Part shown: positions 1,384 to 57,400 of the stretch, piece after piece | Layout of the letters: each line of letters starts with the position of its first letter | How positions within the stretch are numbered: the stretch's first letter is position 1 | Assembly: GCA_946699065.1 (NCBI GenBank) | Contig: CAMPDV010007660.1 | Coordinates: forward strand, 24,826 to 88,825 | DNA from: Loxodes magnus | Lineage: Eukaryota; Ciliophora; Karyorelictea; Loxodida; Loxodidae | Length of the DNA: 64,000 bases | Reading direction: 5' to 3' | Notes under the pieces: model-generated | The model's database searches: none | What the model was told of the DNA's origin: nothing | Seen by the model: the letters and a program-made list of their open reading frames with translations, nothing else | Program-made: the position numbers and the translations under genes

Positions 1384-3870
1384 ATGGGGCAATCTAAAAG
1401 TTGCATCAAATGCTTAGGTAGTTTTGACTCTTAAGAAATCATTCCTGTAACCCTTCCCTGCGGACATAATAAATGCTCAAATTGTGTTCAATAAGAATAC
1501 TTAAAAGATGGCTCTAACTAGTGTCCAAAAAGCAAGTGTAAAAATTTTTATTTCGGTGATAAAAAAGATTCAATAGACTAAAAAGTTAAATCAAAGGAAA
1601 ACAAAAAATAATGCAAATAACTTCATCAAGAAGAAGCTAAAAATTTGAAATTTTTATAAAAAGATTCAAAAAAAGTAAAAGTTTTGATTTTAACTGAGAT
1701 ATAAGAAAAAATAAGCTTAATAGTAGAAATAAGAGAAACAATTGAATAAATAAAATTAAAAATAGAAAAAGAAAAAGGACTTGATCCTGATTTTTATGAA
1801 CTTTATCATGAATAAAAAAAACTAGATTAAAAAAAAAGAATAAATAAAATGGTGGATTAAGAAAAAATTTTATTAAATCTAAGGTTATTACAATGTAATA
1901 AATTATACCTTTAGGAAGTAAGATAAATTACAATGTAGATGGTAAAAAATAAAGATAGAAAGTAATGAATAAAATAACAGTTTTTTAAAAAATGAGAAAA
2001 TAATACGGTATAAATGTAAGAATAGAAAGTAAAAATTATCAAAAATTAGAAAGGAACAAATAATCTAAAGAAGGAGAAAGTAAAAATTTAAAGAAGGTTA
2101 AAATGAATTCAATAAAGGTTAAGAATAAATATATAGGAGGTAACTTTTAAAAAAAGTATGTAAGTATTAAAAAAAGTGAGTAAGAAATAAAAGTTAGAAA
2201 GTAATAAAATTAAATTTTAAGAATGTAAAATTTCTAAAAAGATTGTAAAATAAATCATACAAAGGAAGTAAAATTTTAATTTAGAATGTAAAATGTAAAG
2301 AAGACAGTAAAAATATAACTAAAAGTCGGTGATATTTCAATCAAGAAAGTAAATTATTTATTTTATAGTGAGTAAAATTTATAAATTAAGGAGGTAAAAT
2401 ATAAAATAAGATGGCATAATATTTAATATAGAATGCAAGATATTTAAAAGTTATAGACTGTAAGATGTTTAAATGATTATAGTTTGTGAGATATTTTTAA
2501 TATTTATAGGAAGTAAATTGTTTTAAATACGATAGCTGGTAAGTTTTTCTATTTTATAGGTTGTAACATATTTGAAATATTTATAGTAGGTTTGGAATTT
2601 AAATATTTAAAGAAGGTTTGGAATTATAAATATTTATAGATTGTAAGATATTTGAAATGTTTATAGATTGCAAGATATTTAAAATATTTATAGAGGGTAA
2701 GATATTTTAAATATTCATAGATTGTAAGGTATTTGAAAGAATTATAGATTGTAATATATTTTAATTTATTATAGAAAGCAAGGCAATTTAAAATTTGCAG
2801 TGAGTAAGGTATTTTAAATTCTTATAGGAGGTAAGATATTTGAGATAATTATAGCGAGTAATATATTTAAAATAATTAAAGATAGTAAGCTATTTAAATA
2901 TTTATAGGGAGTAATATATTTTAAATATTTATAGAAAGTAAGGTATTTCAAATATTTATAGTGAGTAAGACATTTTAAATATTTATAGATTGTAATATAA
3001 TTTAAATATTTAAAGTTTGTAAGATATTGCAAATATTTATAGATGGTAAGATATTTTAAATAGAGGGTAAGATATTTTAAATTCTTATAGAGGGTAAGAT
3101 ATTATATGATTATAGAGGGTAAGATATAATATTAAATATTTATAGATAGTAAGATATATTAAACTCTTATAGGAGGTAAGATATTCGAAATAATTATAGT
3201 GAGTAATATATATTAAATGTTTATAGAAAGTAAGATATTTTAAATAATTATAGTGAGCAATATATATTAAATATTTATAGATGGTAAGATATTTAAATGA
3301 TTATAGAGGGTAAAATATTAAATGATAATAGAGGGTAAAATATTAAATGATAATAGAGGGTAAATATTTTAGATATTTATAGATTGTAACAGATTAAATT
3401 ACTTATAGTCTGTATACTAAAAATTATTATAGTTGGTATTTTTATAATAATAATAGATGGTATAAATTAACTCAGTCAGTAAATTTTTAATTAAGGTATC
3501 TTTTTAATTTAGATTGTAAGAATTTATTTTTGATGGTTTGATTTTGATTTAGCTTGTATTTATTCATATAAGTTTGTATACTTTAAGTATAGTCAGTAAT
3601 TATAATGATGAAGAATGTAATATATTTAAACTTCTAAAGGGGGTATTTATTTGATTTAAAGAAAGTAAGTAACTAATTTTAGGTATTTATTTATTAAAGA
3701 ATGTTACTTTGTAATAATTTTATACTTATCAGATTTTTATGATAGGTTGCTATTTATCTATTTATAGGATGTAAAACATTTTATCGAAGTCAGTTTATTT
3801 ATTATACAGAGTGTAATTTTTTACCAAAGCTGAGATCGAGATAACTATTAACTCTTATAAACATTTTATC
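1384..3870 (+). CDS. RING-finger / coiled-coil protein whose 3' part is a one-codon microexon array (gene A)
   Basis: The ATG at 1384 opens a frame that reads well with TAA/TAG as Gln. Residues 7-47 form a C3HC4-type RING: C-x2-C, then C-G-H-x2-C-x2-C, then C-x4-C, which suggests an E3 ubiquitin ligase (family knowledge). A Lys/Glu/Gln-rich coiled coil of about 130 residues follows, including the segment LDPDFYELYHEQKK. From about 1915 the contiguous frame gives way to the trinucleotide-exon array described separately. The terminal exon probably begins near 3830 (CTGAGATCGAG). No B-box or ubiquitin-like domain was found in the contiguous part, unlike genes B and E. Short introns inside the coiled coil cannot be excluded. 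The end is uncertain because TGA can be sense. Neighbour gene B, of the same family, lies 2.3 kb downstream on the same strand. Confidence 0.6.
1915..3812 (+). other. Microexon array 1: about 70 exons of exactly 3 nt separated by 13-45 nt introns
   Basis: The sequence is an almost uninterrupted series of ...TATAG|NNN|GTAAG... units. Introns near the start are 13-22 nt (for example GTAAGAAATAAAAG at 2161-2200); between about 2400 and 3400 they settle at about 24 nt with a shared sequence (GTAAGATATT...ATTTATAG); towards the end they vary from about 14 to 45 nt. Exon triplets include GAA, ATG, AAA, GAG, TAT, TGA, TTA, AAT, ATT, CTG, AGG, CGA and TCA. Several TGA triplets would be Trp under the inferred code. 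Read in phase 0 the last triplets spell S-N-G-K-N-V-D-S, related to the N-G-A-N-I-N ending of arrays 2 and 3. One junction, TTTTAG|GTATTT near 3681, has a zero-length exon and looks like a recursive splice site. Repeated AGG units (3061-3120, 3304-3361) look like tandem duplications of an intron-exon unit. Splicing itself is inferred, not shown. Confidence 0.75.
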
Positions 3871-4129
3871 TTAAATTATGCTTGAAATTTTTATTTATTA
3901 TTTAGAAGTTTTTGGAATTTTAGTTTCAAAGCATAAAAATTTAAATATCTCAATTTTTTTATTATTTTGATACTTTCCGAAAATTGCAGCTAAAGATATT
4001 AAATAAATTTATTTAGTATGATAACTACCCCAGACATAGTTCTTATTCTATAAATAATTAAAATAGCTAAATACTTCAATCATGTTTAAGTAATTTTATT
4101 TGTCTTTTACTTTAGAAATAAATATGGTG

Positions 4130-6187: not shown

Positions 6188-8895
6188 ATGCAAGCAATTA
6201 AATGTGAAGTTTGTGAAGAAGAGTTCAACTAAGAACTTTGAAAGCCTAGAAGGTTGGATTGTGGATGAATTATTTGTGAGAGATGCTTAAAATATTACTA
6301 TAAAATATAAAAGAAGCTAATATTTAACAATCTTAACATTATCACTGATAAACCAATTGAAATATTAGAAATAGCAATTTCACATCTTTAAGAGATGTCA
6401 AAATAAAACTTATTGAGTGTATGTTAAAAGCATAACAAGCTTCTAACTTTGTATTGTCTATAGGACAGCATATTAATATGTAAAAATGTTAATAGAATGC
6501 GCATAAGGATCATCAATGTTGTAGATAAGAAGAGATAATTTCTATTATGTAAGCTCAAATATAAATGACTTTGAGTGGTATAAAGGAAAGGTTAAATCAA
6601 TATTGTTCTGTCTTAGGTCAATGTTAAAAGTAGTTGACTGAAGATTATATGATAAGTTTAAAATATATATTAAAAATCTATCATAATATAAAGAAAAGTT
6701 TATAATTAGCATGTGAAGAGGTGGTAATAAGAGTATAGGAGATAGCTGAATAGTACAGGTAGGAAATAAGTTAAAGCTAAAATAATATTTTTGTGATGAT
6801 TAAGAAAGTAGAGAGTATCGGATAAATGTAATAGGCTGCCATATAGTAAAGTGAGATAAGAAGGGTGAGATAGAGAGATTGGAAGCATAACTTTAAGAAA
6901 ATCAAATAAAGGAAGAATAAAAATATTCTAAGGTATAAGAATAATTTAATATTAAGAATATGGAAAGTTAATTATTTGAAAAAATATTAAAGGAGAGCTA
7001 GTTAAGTTAAGTATAAGAGTTGAATTTTAGATAGAGAGTATAGATATAGTCCAATTAAAGAACTATATGACTTTTATGATAGGAGATGTAGTTATAAGCT
7101 AAAAAATATGAGAGTGCTAATAAGGAAAGTAAAGAATAAATTTTAAAATTACTAAATTAAATAAGAGAGTAGGATTTAGTGCTGAATAACTTGAAAATAT
7201 AAATATCTCACTACCAGAAAGTAATAGAGGATCAAGAATTATAGCGAGAAAGAATATTCTAAAAGTAAAATGCTATCTTGAGTTAAAAGGAATATGATGC
7301 ATAAGACTTAAAAAATAAGATTGAGAAATAGTCTAAGAGTTTGAATTAATAAATAAAAAACTTATCGAGTGAGAGTGTTTAATATTAATTATAAATAAAG
7401 GAGTTGCTTTAGACTAGTAAAGAAAAGGATTAGTGAAATCTATCTTTATAGGAAAAGAAAGAGTAGTATGAAAAATAAGATTTATTAAAGAGAGTATAAT
7501 AAAATAATTGGAGAGCTAGCTTGACAGTTAAAGAAAGGATAATAACCTCTTAAAGGATTTTATTAATAATTTGAGTAAATTAAATAAGTAATGAGAGAAT
7601 AATTTGAATGCACTTTCTAAGGCTAACAATAATTATATGACATAAAATAAAGAGTTAAGTTAGTAAATTAAGACTCTGTAATAGGAGAGATCTAGCTTTG
7701 AAAAATAGATTAAAAGTTTATTTGATGAAAGAAAATAACTTACGTCTCAATTGAATGAGTTTCAAAGTAAGTAAATATAAATTTAATAAGGCTAGTAGTA
7801 AGTTCAGCAATAAGTATCAGTTAAATCTATTTAACCTTAGTAAAACCAATAATTATAAAGTACATAAAATATCTAAGAGTAAACTCCCAAATCTTTATCG
7901 AAGGAGATCATAAACTAAGAAATATAAATAATAATAGTATCTCCGAATAATAAATTTGTAAAGCTTACAGTTAAATAAGATACTGCTGTCTGACAAATAA
8001 AGAGTATGATACAAGTATAAACAAAATTATATTAATGATCATTGGATATTTTTAATAATAACATTAAGTTAGAAAACAAATAGACGATACGATCTTAATA
8101 GATCATGGATGGTTAATAGCTCTAAATGAAATGGAGTGAGTTAAATTTTTAAAATAATAATTATATGTAGATGGTAAGTTAAAATAAATTTTAAATAATC
8201 TTATTATAGGATGTACGATATATTTAGAAACCCCATTTGTAATATAGGTAAGTTGACATTTAATTTTCTTAACACATAGTTAGTAAGTAACATTAATATT
8301 CTTATCACATAGAATGTAATTTGACATTTTATATTCTTAACGTATAGGAAGTAAGTTGATATTTAATATTCTTAACTATATAGATGGTAAATAAACATTT
8401 AATATTCTTAACACTTAGTTGGTAATTTTGAATTAACATCCTAAACATATTGGTTGTAATTTGACATTAATATTCTTAATATCTAGGAGGTAAGTAAGCA
8501 TTTAATATTCTTAACACTTAGAATGTAAATAAGTATTTAATGTTCTAATAATCAAGATAGTAATTAAAAAATTCTACATATGTTTAAAGTTGGTAATAGT
8601 TATTTTAGTAATTACTATATTAGATAAAAGTATTTTAAGTTTGATATTCAAATATAGACTGTAATTGGAATTAATGCTATTAATAGTATGTAAGAGGTCT
8701 TTATAGGACAATATTTATAGATCGTAATTAGTTTTTAACAACTTTTCTTAATTTTAGGTGGTAATATTCTTAATTGATATTATAATAGAATGTATGCTAA
8801 TATGTAAATATATTATAGGGGGTAAATTTGCAGGCTAATATAAACCAAGGACTTATTTAAAATTCTGATAAATGTGAAATTTTCTGAGTATGAGA
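6188..8895 (+). CDS. TRIM-like RING / B-box / coiled-coil / ubiquitin-like protein with microexon tail (gene B)
   Basis: The ATG at 6188 opens M-Q-A-I-K-C-E-V-C, followed by C-G-W-I-I-C-E-R-C: a RING with C-x2-C and C-x-(W)-x2-C-x2-C, where the usual His is Trp (TGA). Near 6415 a B-box follows: C-Q-K-H, Y-C-L-Q-D, I-C-K-N-C, then H-K-D-H. Its second half is in the next frame, so one T appears to be missing near 6486. A long coiled coil with several apparent frame changes, then a Gln-rich linker, leads to a ubiquitin-like domain at about 7935-8150 (KLTVKQDTAVWQIKSMI ... KLENKQTIRSQQI-DGQQLQM). The C-terminus is array 2. RING plus ubiquitin-like domain suggests a role in ubiquitin signalling. 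Frame changes may be tiny introns, decay or assembly indels. Confidence 0.6.
8171..8821 (+). other. Microexon array 2: about 21 one-codon exons after the ubiquitin-like domain of gene B
   Basis: Units are ...CATAG|NNN|GTAAG..., with introns mostly 28-46 nt sharing a GTAAGTTGACATT...ATTCTTAACACATAG pattern. Exon triplets in order include ATG, GAT, GTA, TTA, AAT, GAA, ATG, TTG, GTT, GAG, AAT, ATA, then ACT, TAT, ATC, GTG, AAT, GGG, joining the terminal exon GCTAATATAAACCAAGGA at 8834. In phase 0 the tail reads T-Y-I-V-N-G-A-N-I-N-Q-G. Array 3, on the other strand 47 kb away, reads T-Y-I-E-N-G-A-N-I-N-Q-G. One or two middle units (8590-8650) are irregular. The conservation of spelled codons while introns drift supports protein coding. 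Confidence 0.78.
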
Positions 8896-8983: not shown

Positions 8984-9865
8984 TTAAGATATAATATTAA
9001 AAAAAAAAAAATGGATTAATCTCTTAGACTCTCAAAAAATTAACTTAGAAACCTAAAGAGAAAAGCGGCAAAAGAAATTTAGAAAAAATAATAACAATAG
9101 GAGGAGTCAAGCTCTTCTTCAGAAGGTAAAGTTATGGTAGGATAAATAGAGATAAGTTAACCTAAAAACGAAACTAATCAAAAACTTCAAATTTAATTAG
9201 ATCAAATGTAAAAGGTAATCTCAAATTATGAAGAAACAACTTACAACTTAGGCGAAAAAATACGGGAACTAATGAGTAACATAGAAGATTAGAACAACGA
9301 ATTACTAATACTTAGAAGATAACTTATTTGTAGCAAATTAATAACGGAAGAATAACTCTGAACTTAATCATAATAAAATTTTAAATACGACACAAAAATG
9401 GAAATAGAAAAAATACCAATAGAATTAAAAACAGAATTGAATCCAGAAAAAGAAATGATTGCTACAAGTTTCATTAAAAGATTAGAAAATATAGAAAATA
9501 AATTATCATAAAAAAGAACGAAATAAAGACAATAATACAAACTTTGCTGATGTTGCAAATCAACTTAACATATTTTAAAAAACTGTTGATAATGAAAGAA
9601 AATAAATGAATAAGAGCAGAAAAGAACATGGAGACAACTCAATAAACTATGAATAACTCCAACAGGGATCTACAAATAAAAGCTTTTTGCAAGACCACTT
9701 GAACGGTTACAGTGGTAACCTTCCACTTAATAAAAAGGTCGTGGATCACACCCACGTTAAAAAAACTGTCCGCAGGAACTGGTTGCAATTCCAGAGAATG
9801 CAAAACTCTACTAACTTTAAGTATATTATTATTATTATTATTATTATTATTAAGATATAATATTA
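8984..9865 (+). mobile_element. ORF1-only non-LTR-like retroelement, family E1 (best-defined copy) with 16-bp target-site duplication
   Basis: The element spans 9000-9849 and is flanked by perfect copies of TTAAGATATAATATTA at 8984-8999 and 9850-9865, so it inserted once and recently. It starts just before its ATG, encodes a single ORF1-like protein, has a GC-richer 3' UTR (about 9700-9805) and ends in (ATT)n at 9826-9849. No endonuclease or reverse transcriptase is present, and the whole element is under 0.9 kb. The design resembles HAL1-type ORF1-only elements, which depend on a partner LINE (established for mammalian HAL1; inference here). It landed about 100 bases after the end of gene B. 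Confidence 0.8.
9011..9690 (+). CDS. ORF1-like protein, coiled coil plus CCHC zinc knuckle (E1 copy a)
   Basis: ATG at 9011. About 225 residues: a basic N-terminus (L-R-L-S-K-N-Q-L-R), a Ser/Glu-rich patch (E-E-S-S-S-S-S-E-G-K-V-M-V-G-Q), a coiled coil (G-E-K-I-R-E-L-M-S-N-I-E-D-Q-N-N-E-L-L), then the knuckle C-W-C-C-K-S-T-Q-H-I-L-K-N-C (C-x2-C-x4-H-x4-C) near 9544. Trp at knuckle position 2 is TGA. The C-terminal T-W-R-Q-L-N-K-L-W-I-T uses TGG then TGA. The copy at 21.2 kb writes the first Trp as TGA, which is the clearest evidence for TGA=Trp. The likely role is nucleic-acid-binding chaperone of the retroelement. No frameshift is needed. Confidence 0.75.
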
Positions 9866-22799: not shown

Positions 22800-23725
22800 G
22801 AGGAATTGGTGCAATTTATTCTGCATTGTGAGTAATCTCGCCTTAAATACCACGACGGGGAAGAGTGACAAACTTGGAAGAGACAAGTTTAACTTTCCCT
22901 AGGTTCTCGCTAGCAGTGGGAACGTTTGACTGAAGGATCTGCTAATGACTTAATTACTATATATATAAATATTATTAAATTACCATAGTTGTTCGAGGTG
23001 AACAACAAGGAACGGCTTCATCAGAGGTTGGGGAAGTTAAGTACCCATAATCGCCTTTATGTCTTCCTCTGCTTTGGCTTGGCCTCGAGACATCTGTAGT
23101 TTGACCTTCTGCACTGACTTATTTTATTTTTTAATTCTGGAAATAAAAGGAAATTATTTTTACGAGCTTCATCAGAGGTGGAGAATTTAAGTACCCATAA
23201 TTGACACATGTCGTCCTCTGCTTTGGTGATGCAATGAGACGCAACCCTGACATGTCCTTGAACCTCCAACAAGTATTAAAGATTACGAGTATTCTGAAAT
23301 TATATCAGTATTGAACATTTTTATCAGTACTGAATAATTATACCAGTATTGAATAAGATTTATCAGTATCTGATAATTTTATCAGTAACAAATATTCTTG
23401 TCAGTATGAAACATTTATTTAAAGAGCTGCGCACCAACGAGAGTGCTACGCACTCTATAATCAAATATTTATTTATTTATTATTATTTATCTCTTATTTG
23501 GAACCTATTCAAGAAAACTTAAAAATTTTATTCAAGATTCAAGATTCGATAATAATCTTTAATAAGCAGAACCCCTATTTTGAGAAGCCGACGTTACTCA
23601 TTGGACAACTAGAAATATAGCAAGAAGTATGAGAACACTTTTTTTAATATCAAATATTAATATTGAAAGAGCTACACATCAACAAAATGCTACGTGCAAT
23701 ATAATTATATTTATTTATATATTTC
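22800..23725 (+). mobile_element. SINE-like element, family A, split by an inserted family B SINE
   Basis: The 5' half (22800-22987) has the family A blocks TATTCTGCATTGTGAGTAAT, ACGGGGAAGAGTG and TTTGACTGA. The 3' half (23492-23725) resumes with TCTTATTTGGAACCTATTC, ATTCAAGATT, the AACCCCTATTTTGAGAAG block, and the common 3' hairpin and tail (GAGCTACACATCAACAAAATG...). The 500 bases between are a complete family B element. In the uninterrupted copy at 58.83 kb the two halves are contiguous, so the order of insertion is clear. Confidence 0.8.
22988..23491 (+). mobile_element. SINE-like element, family B, nested in family A
   Basis: It starts GTTGTTCGAGGTGAACAACA (an inverted repeat), contains two related blocks with CTTCATCAGAGGT and TAAGTACCCATAAT (about 23010 and 23165), then a run of short near-repeats around ATCAGTATTGAA (23300-23410). 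The common hairpin GAGCTGCGCACC...GTGCTACGCACTC is at 23426-23456, followed by (ATTT)n. The copy at 51.42 kb is highly similar throughout. Minus-strand frames can be read across it but have no recognised domain. Confidence 0.8.
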
Positions 23726-51419: not shown

Positions 51420-51915
51420 ATTGTTCGAAGGTGAGCAACAAGGTCATCTTCATCAGAGGTTGGGGAAGTTAAGTACCCATAATCGACTTTATGTCTTCCT
51501 CTGCTTTGGCTTGGCCTCGAGACATCTGCTAGTTTGACCTTCGGTACTGACTTATTATAATTTTTAATTCTGGAATGAAAAAGAAATAATATTGCGAGCT
51601 TCATCAGAGGTGGGGAATTTAAGTACCCATAATTGACACATGTCGTCCTCTGCTTTGGTTATGCAATGAGACACAATCTTGCCATGTCCTTGGACCTCCA
51701 ACAAGTATTAAAGATACGAGTATTCTGAAATTATATCAGTATTGAACATTTTTATCAGTAGTGAATAATTATACCAGTATTGAACAAGGTTTATCAGTAT
51801 CTGATAATTTTATCAGTAGCAAACATTCTTGTCAGTATGAAACATTTTTTTTAAAGAGTTGCGCACCAACGAGAGTGTTACGCGCTCTATAATCAAATTT
51901 ATTTATATATTTATC
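51420..51915 (+). mobile_element. SINE-like element, family B, uninterrupted copy
   Basis: It is highly similar to the nested copy at 22988-23491: start TTGTTCGAAGGTGAGCAACA, two CTTCATCAGAGGT/TAAGTACCCATAAT blocks, ATCAGTATTGAA repeats, and the hairpin AGAGTTGCGCACC...GTGTTACGCGCTCT at 51853-51888, then (ATTT)n. The hairpin differs from the nested copy by paired-looking changes. The minus-strand frame 51404-51604 lies within it and has no recognised domain. Confidence 0.8.
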
Positions 51916-51919
51916 ACAA

Positions 51920-54070
51920 TTAAGTAAAATATACTATGTATTCAATTATGGAAAAAGGCTTCAGAAGATATTAAGCAATTAATTATTAAGATATTTACGC
52001 AAAGTTTAAGAGTATATTTAAGTTTGAATTAATTTATATTTAAGTATTTCATATTAAAGATTATTAATATATGGCAATATACTCTTACTTAAATTTAGTT
52101 AAGCCTATAAAATAAAACATCATTGAGAAATTGAAAACATTTAAAAATTGTAAGTGCTTGAAATAAAAAGTATTAATCAATTTATTTAATTAAAAGACAA
52201 TAAAATAAAGGTAATCAATTTAATGTATTTATTAATTAATATATTAATCCTTTTTAGATTCTTTTTTACTCATAGTTTTATATATATGGCATTTTAATTT
52301 TCGAATTAAAAATATATAAAGAATTTTATAAAAGAAAGTGTATTTTATTTATACTTAATTTAGGAAGGTTAATTAATTTTTGTACCTTATATAACAATTT
52401 TTTCTTAAGTTAAAAAGATTTATTTATTTTTTAATTTTATATTCACATTTTTAAAGCACGATAAAATCTCAAACAGTTGTTTATTTTAAATTGTTTTAAA
52501 AGATTAATGAGATTTGAATGGTTTAAATTTATTAAACTCAAAGTCATTAAAAGTTAAAAATAATTATCTTTTTAGTAAAATTAAAAAAATTGCTTTTGTT
52601 AAGCGTGTCATATTAAATAAGATTTTGTGCACTGACTAAGAATTTTAATTTTGGATTAAAAAAAAAAGAAATTGATTATAAATAGAAAATTGGCTGTAGA
52701 TTCAGAGTGAATATTTTTAATAAAAATTAAAAACTATTAAGTATAATAATTAAATCTTATCTCATTTTAGGAAATATTAAAATTAAGTGAAAGTTCATTT
52801 TATAAATACTTTTATTTTACTATTTTTAATTAAAAACAGAGTAGAATAAAATTTATTAATTAATTTAGATATTTTTACATTTCTTTTAATTTTAAAACAA
52901 AATTTGAAAAGTCAAAAAATAAAAAAGTTTAAAAACATTTTCTGCGTTTTTTTTGATAAAATTTTAAGGAAAGGTAAAGCTTATATTTGAAAATAAAAAA
53001 AGGAGTTAGAATTAAATTTTTTAAAATCAAATAATAATAGAGTTGAATTTTTTAAAGTAAATCTAATCAAGAAGAAATGTTAGAAATTTATTAAAAAATT
53101 AAAAGTTAAATCAGATTATTAAATCTTTTTTTAATATGTTTATCATTAATTTTATAGTTCAGAATTTAATTTTTTATTCAATTCTCCAATTTTTTTCTCT
53201 TTTCAAATTTTTTTAGATTTTTTTAAAATTTTGTTAACAAAATAAATTACTCTAATTCTTCTTCTATTCTTAATTAAAATTTTCACTTTTTAAAATCTAT
53301 CACTACTTCTACCCTTTAATCTTTTTATATTATTTCTAATATTTTATCTCTTTTTTCACAAACTTATTTAATTTCCCACTACTACAAAATGCTGGATAAA
53401 AATTTTAAAAAATGTTCACAAATTTTAATACCTTAGAAAATAAAATAAAAGCTTTTTGTAACAATTCTTAAAATTTATTCTCATAATAATTTTTATAAAT
53501 ACTTTGATATTCATTTTTTATAAAAAATTCTTATATTTTACTTTTATATCAATTCTTATAATTTTTAATTCCAAATTAAAAAAATACAATATTAATTTAA
53601 CATTATTTTATTCGTACTTTAAAAATAAATTAGTTTTTTTGTAATATTTGATTAAAAAAATTTCAATCTACTAAAAAAAGTATATAATTTAAAAAAAAGT
53701 TTAATTTTTTATAATAAATAATCTAAATAGCAGAAAATATAAAACATAAAATATAAATAAACAACTTTATTTAAATTAAGCATTATAATTAAACTTTTAT
53801 TTGAATCAAAAATATATTTTAAACAACTTTATAGTTTTTTTTTATTTTAATTTAAAAATTAAAAATTTTTTTATTTTATTTTTTTAATTTGCCATATAAA
53901 CTTTTATTTTCTTTGCTGAAATTAATGAAAATGTATACGAAAATGAAATTAATCGACTTTTTAAATATTTATAGCTTTATTATAAAATTAATTTTCAAAC
54001 CCTTCATTTATAAAGTCTACTAGCGGAATTAATCACTACAGCAAAATAAATTTTTTGGTTATCTACTAAG
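51920..54070. other. 2.1-kb extremely AT-rich, gene-free block
   Basis: Almost the whole stretch consists of A/T runs and TTTTAA/AATTTT words with very little G or C. No motif, repeat tail or conserved frame was found. It could be a matrix-attachment or replication-associated region, or simply relaxed sequence; nothing in it decides. Confidence 0.5.
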
Positions 54071-55399: not shown

Positions 55400-57400
55400 C
55401 ACAAATTAATAACTATAGGAATGATTCTTACAGCCTTGATTAATATTAGCCTGCAACTTACCCCCTTTCATTTTTAAATATAAACATACATTCTATAAAA
55501 ATAACAGTTAAGAATTTTACTTCCTAAAATTAAGAAAAATAGTTAAAAACTAATTACGATCTATAGATGGAGGATATCCTATAAAGACCTCTTACATACT
55601 ATTAATTAAATTCAATTACAGTCTATATTGGAATATCAAACTCAAAAATACCTTTATCTAATATTGTAAAATGTAAAATAACTATTATAAACTTTAAGAA
55701 GTCAAACTTTAAATTACTATCTTTATTAGAATTTTAAATGTTAATTTACATTCTATATGTCAAGAATATTAATTGTTTACTTACCTCCTATGTATTAAGA
55801 ATATTAAATGCCAACTTACCAACTATTTGTTTAAAGCATTAAATATAAACTTACATTCTAGGTGTTAAGAAAATTAAATGTTAACTTACTAACTATGTAT
55901 TAAGAATATTAATTGTCAAATTACGATCTATGCGTTAAGAATATTAAATGTCAACTTACTAGCTATGTGTTAGGAATATTAAATGTTTACTTACTTTCTA
56001 AATGTTGAGAATTTTTTAAAATAAACATACCTATAATAAAAATAAAGTTTCGAAATGTGTACCTCCTATAATAAGATTATTTTAATTATTTTCAACTTAC
56101 CATCTACATATAATTTTTATTTAAAAAATTAACTTACTCCAATTTATTTAGAGCTATTCTCCATCATTTATTTCATAAGATTGTAACGTATTGTTGATTT
56201 ATAACTTGTTGTTATTCTTAAAGATGTCCATTGACCAAAAGTATAGATCTGTTTTTTTTTCTATCATTTTTTTTAGTTATTCGATTGTAGTATCTTATGT
56301 GACTGTAAGTTTTAAAGAACTATTATTCGGTGACACTACCAATATTGAGATTTCTTAATTTTTTCTTATTTAGTTAATTGTTACTACTATTATTATGACT
56401 TTGGCATAACCCAAGCGCTTTATGCCTCTTAAGGAATAGTTCGTTTCTCTAGATACTACTACTAAACCTTAAATAATTATTATTAACACTTGCGATACTA
56501 AGCTTTACACTCTTTCAACTATGTCGTAAGTGCTTAGTTCTCATTTACTAGATCTTAAACCAATTTCTCAGCATTAATCTTGTCCTTTTATAGATCCTAC
56601 AACTACTAACTCATCTACTTGATCTATCTGTCATTATCTTCATTAGTTTGACTAAGCTTTCTCAAACTGTCCTTATTGTTAACTAACTCATTTGCTATAT
56701 TATCTTTATCCTACTAAATATTCGAAACATTCTAACTCAACTACTGAATCTAAGTAGCGTAGCTACTGTTAGCCTGATTTATCGTATTTATTTAGGTTCT
56801 CATATTATTACTCTCCTCAAACACATTAGACGATATCTAGGAGGTCTATTGAAAGACTTCTTAAGCTTCCATCACTATTTTTTAAACCATCTACTCCAAA
56901 TTAGGATCAATAAAACTTTCTTAGATGTCTTATTGAGCATTGCCATATTTACTGACCTATACTTTCTAAATCTTGAGATAACTTAACTAACTACCAAACT
57001 ATTCAACTCTCTCTATTTAATGAAACTATTCTTGAAAACGTATTTTTTTAGGTCATTTATTACTTAATGGAAAAAGCTAGTCTGTTACTCGGCCAACAAA
57101 GTATATGCTAAACGGATTTTATCCTAATAACCTTCAAGCAAAGTAATGCTATTTATTAACACCTTCTACTCTAGAGATTTTAACAACTGAGTATCTTCTT
57201 GTAGCTAATAAGGGCGTAACTTATGGATCATTTAGCAAGATTAATTGAAACATTTGATGTTCATATTTTTCTAGAAATACTCAAATGCACAGGTGACACA
57301 AATATTGTGCTAACATGGAAGGATCATCGGGATTTTCATCTAAGCATCGAAATCTCCATTACAAGATTGACATTTAACAACCTAGGACATTTCTTTTATT
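55400..57400 (-). CDS. Coiled-coil / ubiquitin-like protein with microexon tail (gene E), close paralog of gene B
   Basis: Minus strand. A possible B-box remnant (L-C-H-L-C ... E-H-Q-M-F) lies near 57260-57290. A coiled coil follows (K-L-Q-E-D-T-Q-L-L-K-S-L-E; later D-L-Q-K-D-K-I-N-A-E-K-L-V-Q-D-L), then after frame changes a ubiquitin-like domain at 56110-56320: KLTVTQDTTIEQLKKMI, then K-L-Q-I-N-N-T-L-Q-S-Y-E-I-N-D-G-E-Q-L-Q-I, matching ubiquitin-fold landmarks (T-I-x2-L-K, T-L-x2-Y-x-I, D-G). Gene B has the same domain residue for residue in many places. The C-terminus is array 3. The start and RING were not found. The plus-strand frame at 57223 is an artefact. Confidence 0.58.
55462..56103 (-). 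other. Microexon array 3: about 20 one-codon exons after the ubiquitin-like domain of gene E
   Basis: On the minus strand the array starts TATATGTAG|ATG|GTAAG, as array 2 does, and continues GAG, GTA, AAA, CTA, ATC, TTA, AAT, TTG, GAG, AAT, ATA, then ACT, TAT, ATC, GAA, AAT, GGG, joining GCTAATATTAATCAAGG (terminal exon at 55450 downwards). The tail reads T-Y-I-E-N-G-A-N-I-N-Q-G. Introns are about 20-46 nt and resemble those of array 2. One middle unit (55640-55700) is irregular, in the same place as the irregular unit of array 2. Confidence 0.78.

Follow-up and report, generated by a model that had tools for sequence, protein, structure and literature searches.

How is a gene to be read when, over almost two kilobases, AG, three bases and GT recur at short intervals? 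This question is raised by a locus of the karyorelict ciliate Loxodes magnus in a window of 64,000 nucleotides (the whole stretch of DNA that was analysed), in which AG-N3-GT occurs 66 times between positions 1915 and 3812, as against 4.6 times per equal length in 3901–64000. In the same 1.9 kb, there is no enrichment for AG-N2-GT (1) or AG-N4-GT (3), and some excess of AG-N0-GT (15 vs. 4.0) and AG-N1-GT (8 vs. 4.5), so that the original prediction of an AG/GT interval of almost always three bases is borne out. The answer that we favour, with a probability of roughly 85%, is that the C-terminal tail of a protein with a RING finger and a ubiquitin-like (Ubl) domain owes most of its coding sequence to 72 spliceosomal exons of 3 nt, all in phase 1, which would be spliced in order. 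The predicted parts of this gene, together with the two other arrays in the window, are as follows.

1384–1894, forward strand: exon 1 (511 nt), coding for a RING finger plus a ubiquitin-like domain and ending in phase 1 (from domain profiles, gene model and alignment).
1895–1914, forward strand: intron 1; the codon spanning it is TGA (T at 1894 plus GA at 1915–1916; from gene model and alignment).
1915–2434, forward strand: conserved 5′ block of 3-nt exons with internal exons of 27, 30 and 21 nt; its peptide is kept among paralogs in the ATG frame.
2435–3411, forward strand: variable region, a minisatellite whose unit is mainly one 24-nt (22–24) intron plus one 3-nt exon.
3412–3829, forward strand: conserved 3′ block of 3-nt exons, with the peptide ...F-K-W-E-K in 10/10 aligned genes.
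3830–3885, forward strand: coding part of the terminal exon, with a predicted stop TGA at 3883–3885.
8168–8824, forward strand: array of a second-family gene (RING, coiled coil, Ubl), units of ~35 nt.
55429–56106, reverse strand: array of a further second-family gene, also with units of ~35 nt, which can be aligned to that at 8168–8824.

The hand-curated gene model comprises 76 introns and, besides the 511-nt first exon, the terminal exon and the internal exons of 27, 30 and 21 nt, 72 exons of 3 nt, in agreement with the ~70 exons of single-codon length that had been proposed. Its introns measure 16–43 nt rather than the 13–45 nt of the original prediction; their donors are GT (70) or GC (6), and one ends in TG in place of AG. 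Since this intron lies in the 3′ block, where some introns also abut with no exon between them, the model is less secure there. The places concerned are 3479–3512 and 3665–3699, where AG seems to be followed directly by GT, as at a recursive splice point; paralogs have at the former place either a 21-nt exon or an intron, and one base decides which. A splice-site parse of nine arrays, which used no exon-length prior and whose site matrices were trained on these same arrays, makes 506 of 647 internal exons exactly 3 nt long, and the other 141 fall into 90 multiples of three and 51 that are not; the antisense control gave zero 3-nt exons. As for introns, 640 of the 651 parsed in seven full arrays are 16–27 nt long and seven are shorter, and lengths that are multiples of three are found in 395 of the 651 (256 are not) and in 34 of the 76 in the window model. 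The most frequent length is 24 nt in the unit region, and in the 5′ block of 36 distinct genes, where introns span 16–26 nt, the mode is 19. The layout is far from confined to the window, the unit TATAGNNNGTAAGATATTTNAAAT being matched 13360 + 13619 times genome-wide (26,979 exact), as against 0 + 3 for a reversed-pattern control, and a two-unit pattern 16045 + 15460 times (control 890 + 808).

These putative introns resemble those defined by RNA-seq in L. magnus, which have a mean of 19.3 nt and a mode of 17 nt, with 93% up to 25 nt and a negligible share below 16 (PMC11441545), as regards both their GT/GC-AG borders and their length range. They differ in that most array-unit introns are 24 nt long, whereas introns with a length divisible by three are described as depleted genome-wide (PMC11441545).

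Arrays of this kind are found in two large families of genes with RING and ubiquitin-like domains; conserved blocks on the 5′ and 3′ sides enclose a minisatellite that changes fast. When the assembly was searched with a first-family protein, the best 150 of 2722 candidates were scored and 150/150 match (E <=3.9e-72, identity 76–94%); the 2722 are not a gene count, as copies may be haplotypes. The array is present at the same offset in 30/30 first-family loci retrieved in this way, of which L016 coincides with the locus L010 and several do not differ in their first 900 bases. Conversely, 7/7 loci located by the unit pattern alone (first listing) each have one array behind a RING/ubiquitin-like ORF, which is degenerate in L011 (G000:C52:34500–44499); this locus, with a degenerate RING and some splice sites lost, is probably a decaying copy. 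The second family, which accounts for the two other arrays of the window, combines RING, a coiled coil and a different ubiquitin-like domain; here, the best 150 of 603 candidates were scored and 150/150 match (E <=3.5e-11), and in 12/12 retrieved loci, which include the window's own (L051) and some near-copies, the array lies directly behind the Ubl exon. A second-family-like locus (L063, G000:C41:6800–11300; domains judged by eye) has a different array unit, GTAAGTTAAAGTTTAAGGTGAAAATGAAG plus triplet, so that at least three unit types, all with the AG-N3-GT layout, are found at the same place behind a Ubl domain.

Both domains of the first family are recognisable. RING exceeds the curated Pfam cut-offs in the paralog L010 (zf-RING_UBOX 25.8 bits for a cut-off of 25.2, zf-C3HC4 25 for 21) and is just under them in the window protein (24.3 and 20). 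For the ubiquitin-like domain, a seven-member profile matches PDB ubiquitin chains over residues 94–168, with 19–23 bits for single domains in polyubiquitin and ~28–31 bits for single ubiquitins; Pfam ubiquitin matches were obtained in 6/7 members (best E 1.2e-05), and single hits in another scan are below cut-off. A search of the protein database with a partly inexact query gave 59 candidate relatives, none at E 1e-3. Elsewhere in the window, coiled-coil-like open frames adjoin the second-family genes at 9012 (forward) and 58044 (reverse), and are perhaps parts of retroelements. Two related tandem repeats of 38–39 nt (TATCAGTATTGAA...) lie far apart at 23288–23387 and 51729–51849, and a strongly AT-rich stretch (52001–54000, GC 0.14–0.16) is flanked by ordinary regions.

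In which frame would the triplets be read? The phase 0 of the original prediction had to be dropped once the first exon was found to run for 511 nt from ATG to first donor, since every triplet is therefore in phase 1, completing one codon with its first two bases and opening the following one with its third. The first donor is equidistant from the ATG in 34/36 distinct genes. It is also in this frame that the spliced 5′ peptide is best conserved: among nine diverged genes, the synonymous ratio of the 5′ block is 2.94 in the ATG frame vs. 2.24 and 1.51 in the others, the BLOSUM score of the changes +0.28 vs. −0.45 and −0.70, and of 200 column-permuted controls two match the synonymous ratio and none the BLOSUM score, figures that overstate independence because the gene pairs share ancestry. 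The resulting peptide shows conservative changes (e.g. R-V-L-K-K-Y-W-K-Y-F-E-T-R), and one of its tryptophans is TGG in six of the nine genes and TGA in three. In the terminal exon of six genes, BLOSUM is again best in the ATG frame (0.01 vs. −0.75 and −1.33), while raw synonymous counts do not favour it (12 vs. 28 and 16). An alternative stop within the 3′ block, at AAT|GAT, was considered and dropped, as the alignment shows a further triplet between the two and the terminal exon keeps the ATG frame with conservative changes. What became of the original prediction is thus that GT-AG intron removal around frame-keeping 3-nt exons stands as the best explanation, and the assignment of whole codons to the triplets does not.

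TGA deserves separate treatment, UGA being reported as both stop and tryptophan in L. magnus (PMC11441545). In the arrays, in-frame TGA accounts for 10/2073 codons, as against 302/2164 and 224/2073 in the other frames. This rarity is as marked at lags 2–8 as at lag 1, and among unique pairs TGA is not depleted (7/287 vs. 2.3% expected), so that the rarity stems from triplet composition; the idea of TGA avoidance between neighbouring exons was therefore dropped. The rarity fits the ATG frame without proving ordered joining. The codon that spans intron 1 (codon 171) is TGA, never TGG, at a fixed position in 34/36 distinct genes, the remaining two having no donor at position 511, and by alignment also in 9/9 diverged genes; it sits 2–3 residues past the last residue aligned to ubiquitin. 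Because the codons behind it are conserved in frame, this TGA would be read as tryptophan, and a regulated stop giving a short form is possible. The window model requires four in-frame TGA read as tryptophan, the last of which precedes the stop by only 21 codons, at the margin of the ~20-codon zone ahead of stops in which coding UGA is reported to be depleted (PMC11441545).

What is held constant in the 5′ block is length and borders. Among seven diverged genes (without L011, the picture being the same with it), there are zero gaps in exon columns and 5.7% in intron interiors, and GT differs in 3.4% and AG in 2.0% of comparisons vs. 24% for interiors. The three triplet positions differ in 17, 26 and 25% of comparisons, and since exon columns thus change about as often as intron interiors, constraint on the residues is modest. 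The larger sample of 36 distinct genes has GT or GC donors in 780/792 intron instances and AG acceptors in 788/792. Ninety-two of the 792 introns are off their modal length, 92/92 by a non-multiple of three, and 37/792 exon instances were scored as changed; the 20 displayed are all in one column, which was opened by an extra base in L021 and would explain 36 of the 37.

The variable middle behaves differently. In the 27-nt units of seven arrays, splice sites are near-identical and mean site diversity is 0.57–0.68 in triplets vs. 0.13–0.39 in intron interiors. Among 23 near-identical pairs from 15 genes (pairs with gaps of at least 5 bases, with introns below 99% identity or with zero differences were left out), 408/732 triplets differ in the variable region vs. 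9/381 in the 5′ block, while introns differ by 0.05% and 0.7%, respectively, and exon 1 by 0.9%; an earlier comparison of triplet and intron change (37.1% vs. 2.6%) was discarded as inflated by unit misregistration. Aligned as strings of triplets, the pairs yield 449 matches and 176 substitutions; there are also 216 unit gaps, to which L021, with a contig that ends early, contributes at least 40. Changed triplets differ at one, two or three bases in 106, 94 and 208 cases; on this ground, and given the unit-level exchanges and indels, point hypermutation of triplets was dropped as an account. Gain, loss and exchange of units would best account for this pattern, and we attribute the likeness of introns whose triplets differ to selection on splicing. 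A few triplet types form most of the pool, so there may be few founder units behind it. The arrays of L018 and L019, on separate contigs, are identical, which suggests that triplet order is not assembly noise, but the two may be haplotypes of one locus, and the assembler is reported to have collapsed reads at 96% identity (PMC11441545).

A mechanism consistent with these observations would run as follows. GT/GC-AG introns of 16–43 nt would be removed, each 3-nt exon adding one residue. As two spliceosomes hardly fit across 3 nt, recognition would be by intron definition, and the introns would probably be removed in succession, the upstream exon growing at each step before the next donor comes into use. 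The conserved exon blocks would flank a minisatellite with one intron and one 3-nt exon per unit, and the gain or loss of units and their exchange between copies would cost little, 24 of every 27 bases being spliced out with no shift of frame, which would allow the minisatellite to expand inside a coding region at one residue per unit. The genome was searched twice for spliced copies, and the absence of any find is little informative; in the second search, 40 of 150 candidates were scored, of which 39 start at the terminal exon, while the remaining one extends by a further 8 bases, a match that we took for chance.

Other readings have to be weighed against ordered splicing into a protein tail. 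The nearest, which we consider unlikely, retains splicing and makes inclusion stochastic, with triplets often skipped and many different tails per gene: the frame survives the skipping of a 3-nt exon, unit splice sites are near-identical and the lag test does not separate ordered joining from skipping, but paralogs have kept the residues of the flanking blocks, which points to regular inclusion of the triplets in those blocks. More improbable still is a protein that ends at the intron-1 TGA, with the array spliced as a 3′ untranslated region or skipped. The near-invariance of this codon and its place just behind the ubiquitin-aligned part are what such an early end would predict; however, the in-frame conservation of the codons behind it speaks for translation, nothing in an untranslated region would call for exons of exactly 3 nt, and 3′ UTRs are reported as short in this species (mean 53 bp; PMC11441545).

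Readings that dispense with splicing fare worse. That the array is read through as protein repeats of nine residues (27 nt) might be entertained since the commonest unit has this length and, with TAA and TAG as sense codons, few stops occur in the unspliced frame, but it is made very improbable by the 256 of 651 introns that are not a multiple of three, by homologous introns that differ by non-multiples of three, and by GT and AG conserved far above intron interiors. We give just as little credit to a non-coding, unspliced satellite resembling splice sites by chance or for some other function, which would suit a tandem repeat with fast turnover but leaves unexplained why three unit types share the AG-N3-GT layout behind the same domain in related genes, and why conserved non-tandem blocks show it too. 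Removal of the GT..AG segments from DNA during nuclear development comes to mind in a ciliate, many of which remove short segments, and has next to no probability here: unlike the internal eliminated sequences of ciliates, which are absent from the macronuclear genome, these segments are present in a 705,730,643-base assembly that we infer to be macronuclear and whose size, AT content and sense use of TAA and TAG agree with the published macronuclear assembly (published sizes are 706 Mbp for the macronuclear and 848 Mbp for the micronuclear assembly; PMC11441545), and the published account describes no classical internal eliminated sequences in L. magnus (PMC11441545).

If the tail is indeed encoded by 3-nt exons spliced in order, a further, tentative idea, which we think has a lesser but real chance of being correct, is that the exons act as codon cassettes. 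Each residue of a hypervariable tail would be carried on its own 3-nt exon, recombination in introns would re-deal residues in a frame-safe manner, and RING-Ubl tails could be constantly renewed in a genome that is free of DNA editing; the near-invariant TGA could then switch between short and tailed forms by context-dependent termination.

How does this compare with known systems? LRR genes in Tetrahymena, a fast-evolving ciliate family, consist of tandem 90-bp exon-intron units coding a repeat motif; they share the tandem array of exon-intron units with the genes described here, in which the exon is, by contrast, only one codon's length. Microexons in animals and plants are single, lie between ordinary exons and have long introns. 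They too consist of a few nucleotides and are missed by standard aligners (PMC8831610, PMC7821500, PMC11463390), whereas the 3-nt exons in L. magnus run consecutively and uninterrupted. The micro-exon genes (MEG) of Schistosoma mansoni likewise string together large numbers of very short exons, whose lengths are mostly divisible by three, and a role in protein variation has been proposed for them; they are described as 35 genes with 10–20 short exons, mostly of 15 bp, and introns of 0.1–5 kbp (PMC10526429). Here, there are instead very many genes, with dozens to more than 100 exons of exactly 3 nt and introns mostly of 16–27 nt, and the families are characterised by RING and ubiquitin-like domains rather than by signal peptides as in MEG. 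Recursive splicing in flies (PMC6110457) and stwintrons in fungi (PMC5639578) also involve splice sites so close that order matters, and their abutting AG|GT occurs in the array as well, but they leave nothing in the mRNA, whereas nearly every step here would leave 3 nt.

Among the matches listed in full-text literature searches, with supplements outside their scope and subscription papers and bioRxiv thinly covered, we found no description of such arrays of 3-nt exons. Genes of this kind are presumably easily missed, and appear to have been missed in the published work on L. magnus, which is described as masking long tandem repeats and using a standard spliced aligner for reads, in a macronuclear assembly with 231 Mbp of low-complexity tandem repeats (PMC11441545).

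The key implication, if our reading is true, is that one genome uses 3-nt exons in bulk, with at least tens of thousands of them (26,979 exact unit matches) and perhaps a total of the order of a hundred thousand, an estimate obtained from candidate genes times triplets in which haplotypes are not all merged. Such exons would leave no room for exon definition, so that splicing would be strictly intron-defined and its order directly testable, and a series of them would put exon recognition by the splicing machinery to an extreme test. The arrays would also illustrate the growth of a satellite within coding sequence, with each added unit costing a single residue.
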